A stretch of 32,682 nucleotides of DNA, taken from the NCBI GenBank assembly GCA_002787815.1, contig PCUY01000088.1, positions 9,450 to 42,131 on the forward strand, read 5' to 3'. Position 1 is the first letter of the stretch. Each line of letters opens with the position of its first letter. The DNA is from Bacteroidetes bacterium CG12_big_fil_rev_8_21_14_0_65_60_17 (lineage in GTDB: Bacteria > Bacteroidota > Rhodothermia > Rhodothermales > UBA10348). A model generated the notes under the pieces. The model worked only from the letters and a program-made list of their open reading frames with translations, searched no databases and was not told the origin of the DNA. The translations under genes were made by a program, and so were the position numbers. Of the stretch, positions 21,426-24,839 are shown piece by piece.

Positions 21426-23150
21426 ATGGCGAAAGTTGAAGTGACCATGCCCAAGATGGGCGAAAGTATCACGGAAGGGACCGTAATCGAGTGGCTGAAG
21501 CAGCCGGGCGACACGGTCGAAATGGATGAACCGTTGCTGGAAATCGGCACGGACAAGGTCGATACGGAGGTCCCGTCGCCAAATGCGGGCGTGCTGTCCG
21601 AAATTCTGGTGGAAGCCGGCGATACGGTAGAGGTAGGAACAGCCATTGCCATTTTGGAAACAGATGCCGACGACGCGTCCGACGCAGCGCCCGAGCCCGA
21701 GCCCGAGCCTGAATCCGAGCCCGAGCCCGAGCCTGAATCCGAGCCCGAATCGGAGCCCGCGTCTGCAGCGGACAACTCGGCAGAGACCGGGCCAGCGGCG
21801 CCACCGAGTGGCAAGCGCGTTGAAGTCCACATGCCCAAGATGGGCGAAAGTATTACAGAAGGAACCGTCCTTGCGTGGGCGAAAAAGGTAGGCGATGACA
21901 TCGAGCTGGACGAGACGCTACTTGAGATCGCTACCGATAAGGTTGACACGGAAGTGCCTGCTCCTGCCGCGGGTGTGCTCCAGGAAATCTGTGTTGAGGA
22001 AGGTGAAACGGTCGAGGTCGGTACACTGATCGCCGTGATCGGGTCGGAGAAGGCACCCGATTCTGCGCCGGCACCCGGTTCCGCGCCGGCACCTGGTTCC
22101 GCGTCCACCTCCACGGCAAAAGCCGCTGCCGAAACACCCTCCCAGCCTGCAGCGCGCCCTTCCGAGTCGGTGGGCCCGATTGAGCGGACCGACGACGAGG
22201 GCCGGTTTTACTCGCCGCTGGTACGCTCCATTGCGGAGGCTGAGGGCGTTTCGATGTCCGAGCTGAAGCAGATCAAGGGGTCCGGTCGGGAAGGTCGCGT
22301 TACGAAGGCCGACCTGATGGCTTATCTGGAAGCGCGCGGCAGTGCGCCGGCGGCGAAGGAGGCACCGGCGGCGAAGGAGGCACCGGCACGGCCGTCTGCG
22401 GGCGTCGCATCTACAGGAACAGCGGCCTCCGGAGAGCGGGTAGAAGTGGTCAAAATGGACCGCATGCGGCAGATCATTGCCGAGCACATGACGCGCTCCA
22501 AAGCGACGAGTGCGCATGTGACCTCGTTCGCGGAAATTGATGTGACCAATCTGGTTCGGCTGCGGGAAACGAACAAGGAGGCGTTCCAGGCGCGCGAGGG
22601 CATCAAGCTCACGTATACTCCGTTTTTTGTGCAGGCGGCCGTTCAGGCTCTCAAGGACCACCCCATTCTGAACAGCTCGGTCGATGGGGATTCCATCGTG
22701 TACCGCAAGGATATACATATCGGAATTGCGGTGGCTATCGGGACGAGCGGGTTGCTGGCACCTGTCATCCGGGATGCCGGGCAACGCAACCTTACGGGAC
22801 TGGCACATGCGGCCGCGGACTTGGCAACGCGGGCGCGAAGCAAGCAGTTGTTGCCCGATCAGTTGGCGGGAGGCACATTTACGGTGACCAATGTAGGCTC
22901 GCTCGGGTCCATCATGGGTACGCCCATCATCAATCAGCCGCAGGTGGCCATCCTGGCGACGGGCGCCATCAAGAAGCGCCCGGTAGTCATCGAGGATCCT
23001 GACATGGGTGACGTGATTGCCGTGCGTCACATGATGGTTGTGTCGCTTTCGTATGATCACCGGATTATTGACGGATCGATGGGGTCGTCTTTCCTGCGCT
23101 CCTACACCGATGCGCTCGAAGGACTGGATCCTGATACGGAAATTCAATAA
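21426..23150 (+). CDS. 2-oxo acid dehydrogenase E2 acyltransferase, two lipoyl domains
   Basis: A 574-residue dihydrolipoyl acyltransferase. Lipoyl domain 1 (~1-78) has the lipoylated lysine K44 in GTDKVDTEV; lipoyl domain 2 (~131-205) has K172 in ATDKVDTEV. They are joined by a Glu/Pro/Ser linker (~90-112). The peripheral-subunit (E1/E3) binding domain is at ~262-302 ([33 protein letters not shown]), followed by an Ala/Pro/Lys linker. The CoA-dependent acyltransferase core (~340-574) ends with HRIIDGS, carrying the catalytic HxxxDG pattern. It could belong to the 2-oxoglutarate, pyruvate or branched-chain complex; [13 protein letters not shown] in both lipoyl domains is typical of Bacteroidota E2 proteins. 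No E1 or E3 gene is adjacent, so the substrate is not decided here. Confidence 0.93.
21687..21757 (+). repeat. Glu-Pro/Ser tandem repeat in the E2 linker
   Basis: Repeated hexamer-like units built on GAGCCC with GAATCC variants encode alternating Glu-Pro and Glu-Ser residues in the flexible linker between the two lipoyl domains. A second, shorter repeat (GCGGCGAAGGAGGCACCG twice, about 22351-22387) lies in the later Ala/Lys/Pro linker, and GCGCCGGCACC[CT]GGTTCC occurs twice near 22068-22101. Such repeats are prone to length change by slippage without affecting domain folds. Confidence 0.75.
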
Positions 23151-23222
23151 CCGTTATTGACAAAGTCCGTCAAAGTTGGTTGATTGGGGGGCCGTCAGAA
23201 TGCACGAATCTGCCCCATACCC

Positions 23223-24131
23223 ATGACCCTTGCCGATAGCCCGGACCTGAAGCTGTCTCCTGCTGCCCTTCGGGAACACATGCAGCGTTTCCTGCGGGAG
23301 TATCTGGCAGACAAGAGTCCCGAAACGGTAGGTACGTATCGTCGCTCCCTGAACGAGTTTGAGCGCTGGTTCATGCGGGGCGACACCGATTGTGTTTTCC
23401 GCACGGAGGATATTGCCGCCTACAAGAAGTGGCTCATGGATACGCGGGGTCTGCATGAAGTATCGGTCTCGACGTATCTGACCGCCGTCCGGCGGCTGTG
23501 TCAATACATGGTGGACCGGGGTATGCTTCCCGAAAACCCGGCGCGGGCCGTGAAGGGAAACCGCCGACCGGATGCGCACACGCGCGATGTCCTGTCACGA
23601 AGCGACGTGGACAGGCTGATGGCGGGAATTCCTGCGGATTCGCGCATCAACACGCGTGACAGGGCGATTGTGCACATGATGCTGTTCGCCGGGCTGAGTG
23701 AGATTGAAATTACGCGGGCCGATGTGCAGGACCTCGAGCAGACACTCATGGGGTGGTATTTGCGAATCCAGGGAAAAGGTCATACGCTGAAAGATCAACA
23801 GGTGCCGATCGATCCTCCCGTCATGGATGCCATACGACTATATCTGGATGCACGGGGCCGGATTTCGCCGGAAGACCCACTCTTTGTCTCTCATGGTCAC
23901 CGAAGTGAGGGAAAGCGGCTCAATACGCGCTCGGTCCGGAGCCGGATCAATGCGCACCTGCAGACGGCAGGCGTGAAGCGTAAAGGTATAACGCCCCACA
24001 GCCTGACCCACACGGCGGCCCTGTTGTGGCTGGGCGACGGGATGTCGGTCGACGACGTCCGTCGCCGCATGCGACACGGCACGCTGGAAACCACCATGAT
24101 GTACTATCGCCGACAGGAAGGAGGAGAATAA
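23223..24131 (+). CDS. tyrosine recombinase-like protein lacking both catalytic arginines
   Basis: A 302-residue protein with tyrosine recombinase (XerC/XerD/integrase) architecture. The N-terminal SAM-like core-binding domain spans ~15-105 (FLREYLADKSPETVGTYRRS, VSVSTYLTAVRRLCQYMV) and the catalytic domain ~120-302. Usual catalytic order is R-K-H-R-H-Y. Here the first Arg (GLR) is Ser159 in AGLSEIEITRADV, Lys185 is kept in RIQGKG, His259 is kept, the second Arg (HSLRHT) is Thr262 in HSLTHTAA, His285 is kept in MRHGT, and Tyr294 is kept in TTMMYYRR. Both arginines normally hold the scissile phosphate, so normal strand cleavage is doubtful. The start ATG 23223 is the first one giving a family-like N-terminus. 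An AlkD-like gene follows after 3 bases with its ribosome binding site inside this gene. Confidence 0.88.
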   Translation: MTLADSPDLKLSPAALREHMQRFLREYLADKSPETVGTYRRSLNEFERWFMRGDTDCVFRTEDIAAYKKWLMDTRGLHEVSVSTYLTAVRRLCQYMVDRGMLPENPARAVKGNRRPDAHTRDVLSRSDVDRLMAGIPADSRINTRDRAIVHMMLFAGLSEIEITRADVQDLEQTLMGWYLRIQGKGHTLKDQQVPIDPPVMDAIRLYLDARGRISPEDPLFVSHGHRSEGKRLNTRSVRSRINAHLQTAGVKRKGITPHSLTHTAALLWLGDGMSVDDVRRRMRHGTLETTMMYYRRQEGGE

Positions 24132-24134
24132 CCC

Positions 24135-24839
24135 ATGCCAGGACCCATAGATATTCCTCATCTGTACTCTCCGGAGGATGTCGTTCGATTCGTAGGACGT
24201 CAACTCGCGGCGGCACGGGACCAGGAGAAAGCCCATCAGATGGCGCAGTACATGAAGACGCGGATGCCGTTCTACGGTGTGCAGAAGCCCGGTCGCGAGC
24301 ACATTGCCCGGGCGGTGAAATGGCATTTCCGGCCGTCATCCCAGACCGAATACGAACGACTCGTGCGCATGCTCTGGAGTCAGGAGCACCGGGAGGAAAA
24401 ATATCTGGCGGTTCAGTTTGCCCGAACTTTCCGGCTGTTCATCACACTCGAATCCATGCCGCTCTACGAATTTCTGATCCGCGACGGCGCGTGGTGGGAC
24501 TTCGTGGACGATGTGGCAATCCGACTCGTCGGCACGGTCCTGCGCCATGAACGGCCACAGATTTCACCCATCCTCGACCGGTGGATAGAGGACGAGGATC
24601 GATGGATACGTCGGGCAGCGCTGCTCTCGCAGATCATGCATCGGGAGCATACGGATCATGCACGTCTGTTCCGTTATTGCCGGATATGCATACACGAAGA
24701 GGATCCATTCATCCTGAAGGCGGTGGGCTGGGCGCTGAGGGACTATGCCAAGGCGGCTCCCGATCGCGTGGAACATTTCCTGTCTGAATTCAATGGATCG
24801 CTGCCCGGTGTCGTGGAGCGCGCCGTGAAGAAAGCATAG
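24135..24839 (+). CDS. AlkD-like DNA alkylation repair glycosylase
   Basis: A 234-residue all-helical protein of the AlkD (HEAT-like repeat) DNA glycosylase family, which removes alkylated bases such as 7-methylguanine or 3-methyladenine without flipping them. Matching elements: MAQYMKTRMPFYGVQKPGR at ~36-54, EEKYLAVQFAR, the active-site segment AWWDFVDDVA (Trp121, Asp125), RWIRRAALLSQI with the conserved Arg at ~159-160, and FILKAVGWALRDYAK with Trp199. Length fits. A strong AGGAGG lies within the last codons of the recombinase-like gene, so the pair is translationally coupled. It is convergent with the PorQ-like gene, 19 bases away. Confidence 0.9.
   Translation: MPGPIDIPHLYSPEDVVRFVGRQLAAARDQEKAHQMAQYMKTRMPFYGVQKPGREHIARAVKWHFRPSSQTEYERLVRMLWSQEHREEKYLAVQFARTFRLFITLESMPLYEFLIRDGAWWDFVDDVAIRLVGTVLRHERPQISPILDRWIEDEDRWIRRAALLSQIMHREHTDHARLFRYCRICIHEEDPFILKAVGWALRDYAKAAPDRVEHFLSEFNGSLPGVVERAVKKA

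Follow-up and report, generated by a model that had tools for sequence, protein, structure and literature searches.

Tyrosine recombinases that have lost catalysis are already known as DNA-binding proteins from a transposon (TnsF) and from Crypton-derived genes of animals. In Firmicutes, the XerD-like protein of Streptococcus (HAMAP MF_01817) is a chromosomal Xer paralogue with a degenerate active site, and IntDOT of CTnDOT carries a substitute arginine two residues before the catalytic lysine. TnsF of Tn6022 is a transposon protein of 498 aa that combines zinc fingers and tandem core-binding domains with a truncated catalytic domain; it is related to tyrosine recombinases but no longer catalytic, and it acts as a DNA-binding factor with sequence specificity (PMC10293859). 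The Crypton-derived DUF3504 genes of animals stem from a tyrosine recombinase that was domesticated long ago and has lost catalytic residues (PMC3212892). In IntDOT, the residue at the first arginine position is not arginine, and activity is kept through the substitute arginine downstream (PMC8138268). A limited search of the open-access literature returned no account of an order-wide, vertically inherited inactive tyrosine recombinase on a bacterial chromosome, and nothing on the family described here, whether sought through the family itself or through the Xer proteins of Rhodothermus and Salinibacter.

The gene under study, here called pseudo-Xer, lies in a window of 32,682 nucleotides, the whole stretch of DNA that was analysed, from a metagenome-assembled genome of the Rhodothermales (Bacteroidota). 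The gene and the residues discussed below are as follows:

23223..24131, + strand: Xer-like pseudo-recombinase gene, an uninterrupted open reading frame of 302 aa with a SAM-like N-terminal domain (about residues 15–107) and a recombinase domain (123–298)
23697..23699, + strand: Ser159 (codon AGT), at the position of the first catalytic arginine
23775..23777, + strand: Lys185, the catalytic lysine, still present
23928..23930, + strand: Arg236, in the predicted DNA-recognition helix
24006..24008, + strand: Thr262 (codon ACC), at the position of the second catalytic arginine, in HSLTHTAA
24102..24104, + strand: Tyr294, the nucleophile position, still tyrosine

By descent, pseudo-Xer belongs to the tyrosine recombinase superfamily (PF00589), since its catalytic-domain fold and its SAM-like domain are both homologous. 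The PF00589 match covers residues 123–298 at 63.7 bits against a cut-off of 27.1, the N-terminal SAM-like match covers residues 21–100, and no extra domain was found. The original prediction that both invariant arginines are replaced is exact: alignment of E. coli XerD (1a0p) with a profile of 57 orthologues placed no gap across either arginine site, which rules out a 3-residue deletion at the first, and Lys185, His259, His285 and Tyr294 are all present, as had been stated. The active site reads S-K-H-T-H-Y in place of the R-K-H-R-[H/W]-Y of active tyrosine recombinases. When the protein was modelled with AlphaFold2 (mean pLDDT 87), it matched XerA, Cre, XerH and XerD, and helix 235–248 of the model corresponds by alignment to the DNA-recognition helix of XerD.

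Comparison with the described systems sets the protein apart from each of them. It shares fold, length, domain order and a gapless alignment of the catalytic motifs with XerC and XerD (TIGR02224, TIGR02225), but it reaches 120 bits against the XerC cut-off of 335 and 105.5 bits against the XerD cut-off of 329.6, falls outside both clades, lacks both catalytic arginines and has a shorter C-terminal tail. Unlike XerS/difSL, XerH/difH and XerA, it has neither an intact active site nor a terminus-linked dif-like palindrome. Unlike TnsF, it is full-length, chromosomal and vertically inherited; no zinc fingers of the TnsF type were found in its 302 aa, and its neighbours are sucB, an AlkD-like gene and SecA rather than a tniQ/tnsABC operon. 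The DUF3504 genes are eukaryotic and have lost the tyrosine and the second arginine, whereas pseudo-Xer has lost both arginines and mostly keeps the tyrosine. In contrast to IntDOT, pseudo-Xer also lacks the second arginine and shows no evident substitute at the comparable place.

The replacements are a property of the order. Orthologues were detected in 104 of 114 Rhodothermales genomes, a count that depends on the E-value thresholds. Among the 65 main-group sequences (about 60 distinct proteins, some rows being near-duplicates), threonine occupies position 262 in all 65, and position 159 is Ser in 58, Ala in three, Gly in three and Thr in one, never Arg; close relatives with both arginines, which would have pointed to local decay in the present genome, were not found in this group. 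Thr262 is encoded by ACC (29 sequences), ACG (29), ACT (5) and ACA (2). Substitutions common to about 60 species and written in several synonymous codons reflect neither sequencing error nor chance, and local decay is likewise ruled out by the breadth of occurrence, the fixed residues and the varied codons. Among close congeners (identity of at least 90%), dN/dS is 0.05–0.07. Its surroundings are conserved as well:

21426..23150, + strand: sucB-like E2 subunit of a 2-oxoacid dehydrogenase, the conserved upstream neighbour

Across the order, pseudo-Xer comes after sucB, and wherever the contig extends far enough, a PorV-like gene and secA mostly follow it. Order-wide presence, shared synteny and purifying selection together indicate a vertically inherited core gene.

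Catalysis has presumably been lost, to judge from the residues that vary and those that do not. Family f15 of the Rhodothermales has an active site that is scrambled almost throughout. The gene nevertheless remains at the same place downstream of sucB, its dN/dS is 0.12–0.23 within the largest genus of that family, and the protein is still predicted to adopt the full Xer/Cre fold. Tyr294 is replaced by serine in five relatives and by histidine in one (6 of 65) and is mostly lost in f15. The relatives with Ser294 retain the lysine, both histidines and Thr262, and nucleophilic catalysis is thus not the reason why these residues are kept. With five clades taken together, K185 ranks 31 and Y294 ranks 54 in conservation among the 302 positions, and the other catalytic positions rank 116, 120, 123 and 205. 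Arg236, by contrast, is invariant in all 108 family members, even where the active site is scrambled. Two further arginines stand close to the second histidine: R282 is Arg or Lys in 107 of 108, and R284 occupies the place of the glycine in the canonical LGH motif, the family motif being R-M-R-H. Gln183, two residues before Lys185, is glutamine in 65 of 65. In XerD and XerA, the tail after the tyrosine docks on the partner or in the protein's own cleft (PMC5052618); in pseudo-Xer, its median length is 8–15 residues in four of five clades and 23 in the fifth, compared with 19–20 in XerC and XerD. Three findings support the prediction that selection keeps the gene for a role other than normal recombination: the change is fixed order-wide, dN/dS is low, and the gene persists where the whole active site is gone.

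A search of the phylum with alignment of the matches extended the family beyond the Rhodothermales, to Chlorobia-type genomes (a label that rests on the FMO protein marker only) and other genomes. Chlorobia-type members mostly read S-K-H-R-H-Y, with the first arginine alone missing, other families of the phylum mostly read S-K-F-R-I/L-Y, and the sister lineage f21 in the same class reads T-K-H-V-H-Y; loss of the second arginine was found in the Rhodothermales and f21. Three of the 10 Chlorobia-type members (L115, L119, L144) have arginine at the first site, two of them with glutamine at the second, and this arginine was probably regained, since the three are nested among serine-bearing relatives in the tree. 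Apart from these exceptions, the first arginine is missing family-wide beyond the order, and the other catalytic losses are lineage-specific. In a tree built without the XerC row L203, the family comes out as a single clade (99/93), separate from XerC (95/95) and XerD (99/97). Because its internal branching follows taxonomy, the loss of the first arginine is old. By its place in this tree, pseudo-Xer is a third Xer paralogue of ancient origin, distinct from XerC and XerD.

Chromosome dimer resolution in the order appears to depend on other proteins. None of the 114 Rhodothermales genomes has a match to the XerD model above its curated cut-off. The present genome carries two recombinases with an intact R-K-H-R-H-Y. 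Outside the order, 26 of 26 genomes from the phylum have an XerD above the cut-off together with a second gene of XerC type, and this pair is found in sister lineages of the class. FtsK with a gamma domain was found in 37 of the 38 genomes checked (35 of 36 within the order). A recombinase with intact R-K-H-R-H-Y, here called type A, occurs in 61 of the 114 genomes and is absent from the present genus. Three complete genomes, each from a different family, have it at or beside the GC-skew terminus, as estimated by sampling twenty 20-kb stretches of each genome: at 3.48 Mb in G032 (switch at 3.4–3.6), at 4.47 of 4.50 Mb in G036 (switch near 0/4.5) and at 2.04 Mb in G049 (switch at 1.9–2.0). Directly upstream of 9 of 18 type A loci (L151–L168, for example L153, L154, L155, L156 and L157) stands a 28-bp palindrome of 11-6-11 architecture, GATAA-N6-TTATC, with 11/11 positions paired in the best cases; an example is ACTTCCGATAA-CAGTTC-TTATCGGAAGT. 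The GATAA-N6-TTATC pattern did not occur in 1.2 Mb of background. A degenerate canonical-dif pattern was uninformative, its reversed control matching as often in AT-rich genomes. The terminus position and the upstream palindrome make type A the likely dimer-resolution recombinase where it is present, and it resembles a single-recombinase Xer/dif system that has taken the place of XerC/XerD; in many Rhodothermales, another recombinase thus seems to have taken over dimer resolution. Pseudo-Xer itself was rejected as the dimer resolvase, as it lies away from the terminus in the three complete genomes and its active site is lost. The names under which databases hold the whole family, "tyrosine recombinase" or XerC/XerD, are therefore misleading on dimer resolution in the Rhodothermales. 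Instead of type A, the present genus has a recombinase ending in SSSNYLDI (L002, contig C45 of the present genome), with an intact active site. An integron-integrase-like gene with an intact active site (L001, contig C52) is also found in this genome.

The region upstream of pseudo-Xer holds a conserved element with the following parts:

23145..23197, + strand: 53-bp block, identical in three species of the genus, with the palindrome CAATAAC-C-GTTATTG at 23145–23159
23151..23162, + strand: CCGTTATTGACA element, the core of the block, with this one exact copy in the genome and with order-wide conservation in front of the gene
23180..23185, + strand: TTGATT, the -10-like half of a candidate promoter, 17 bp after TTGACA, with conserved T positions

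The coding sequences of the three species that share the identical block differ synonymously, with dS of 0.6–0.9. Over all clades, 34 of 121 loci have CCGTTATTGACA immediately before the gene, with one copy elsewhere in 1.07 Mb, and with up to two mismatches it is found in 47 of the 64 upstream regions of the main group. In those 47 regions CCGTTATTG is invariant, and a T-rich -10-like hexamer lies 17 bp beyond TTGACA. Among the copies of the exact 12-mer listed for 32 genomes, 20 of 30 lie at the orthologue, in 20 of the 32 genomes, the remaining 10 being near the chance expectation (estimated at about 6); the 12-mer has no copy in 1.2 Mb of background. A second CCGTTATTG lies 21–44 bp downstream in some lineages. 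The element is not an 11-6-11 dif-like palindrome. Xer arms begin with TTAT, a feature that the type A dif-like sites share, and the half-site TTATTGACA resembles such arms. The other 17 of the 64 regions (families f4, f9, f12 and others) lack the element, as does f15, and the gene is kept in all of them. Among the lineages with Ser294, L072, L080 and L081 have no upstream CCGTTATTGACA and L078 has CCGTTATTG only.

We consider it likely, with a probability of about 0.6, that pseudo-Xer is a former recombinase kept as a site-specific DNA-binding protein, probably an autoregulator that acts through the upstream element. The protein appears to retain a clamp fold of two domains, together with the arginines that face the DNA, while the loss of both phosphate-binding arginines would leave it unable to hold the scissile phosphate. 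It would most likely bind the CCGTTATTG(ACA) element, which overlaps its own promoter-like sequence, and perhaps also other degenerate sites, in a regulatory or architectural role. Of the three possibilities raised originally, a structural partner, DNA binding or altered chemistry, DNA binding is favoured by the invariance of Arg236 and by the practically single-copy element, whose position before a gene of DNA-binding type suggests autoregulation; that pseudo-Xer is the protein which binds there we infer from this arrangement. Lys185 and Tyr294 fit less well, as both are still conserved in most lineages although pure binding does not require them, and the retention of the gene where the element is absent is a further difficulty. 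Another regulator might bind the element instead. In that case, the element would serve a different protein as operator or special promoter, and pseudo-Xer would act at other sites, which agrees with the -35/-10-like spacing of 17 bp and with the lineages that have the gene and no element. We regard this as unlikely, because practically one exact site per genome would be unusual unless the gene regulates itself, and because the half-site is like Xer arms.

In another explanation, doubtful to a similar degree, pseudo-Xer would be a catalytically inactive member of a complex with an active tyrosine recombinase, contributing binding or synapsis while the partner performs the chemistry. Xer recombinases act as heterotetramers, nearly all genomes checked have at least one further recombinase-family gene, and the present genome has two with an intact active site. 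However, no single active partner co-occurs with pseudo-Xer, as the XerD model finds nothing above its cut-off in the order, XerC/XerD occur elsewhere in the phylum, and type A, present in little more than half of the genomes and missing from this genus, is ruled out as an obligate partner. Obligate pairing with XerC/XerD is accordingly unsupported, the gene persisting in an order without such XerD matches. The neighbour-docking tail is also short in four of five clades, and the gene lies away from the terminus in three genomes. Altered chemistry, in which DNA is still cleaved with a phosphate clamp rebuilt from other arginines such as R282 and R284 of R-M-R-H, is more improbable again. The conservation of Lys185 and Tyr294 in most lineages, the arginine in place of the LGH glycine, the nearly constant Arg or Lys at position 282 and the precedent of IntDOT, in which another arginine replaces the first (PMC8138268), are in its favour. 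Against it, two arginines would need replacing, the gene is retained where the tyrosine has become Ser or His or is mostly lost, and Gln183 occupies the place that holds the substitute arginine in IntDOT. Its most specific form, limited cleavage or nicking by a clamp rebuilt from R282/R284 beside His285, with Lys185 and Tyr294, at the gene's own single-copy upstream element, is very improbable; if true, gene expression or DNA topology would be controlled by a self-targeting former recombinase. Both the partner and the altered-chemistry explanations are thus less likely than a DNA-binding pseudo-recombinase. The stepwise loss of active-site residues would fit a pseudogene in decay, or what is left of a recombinase since lost, but this reading is refuted by frames that stay open in nearly all genomes, a dN/dS well under 1, a conserved place and order-wide presence. 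For the DNA-binding interpretation, a candidate site directly upstream and practically unique in the genome makes the proposed switch from recombinase to regulator readily testable.

On its other side, pseudo-Xer is followed in the window by a gene outside the conserved unit:

24135..24839, + strand: AlkD-like DNA alkylation repair gene (PF08713, by domain match)

This neighbour was rejected as a conserved partner, as it adjoins pseudo-Xer only in the present genus, where it starts 3 bp past the pseudo-Xer stop codon.
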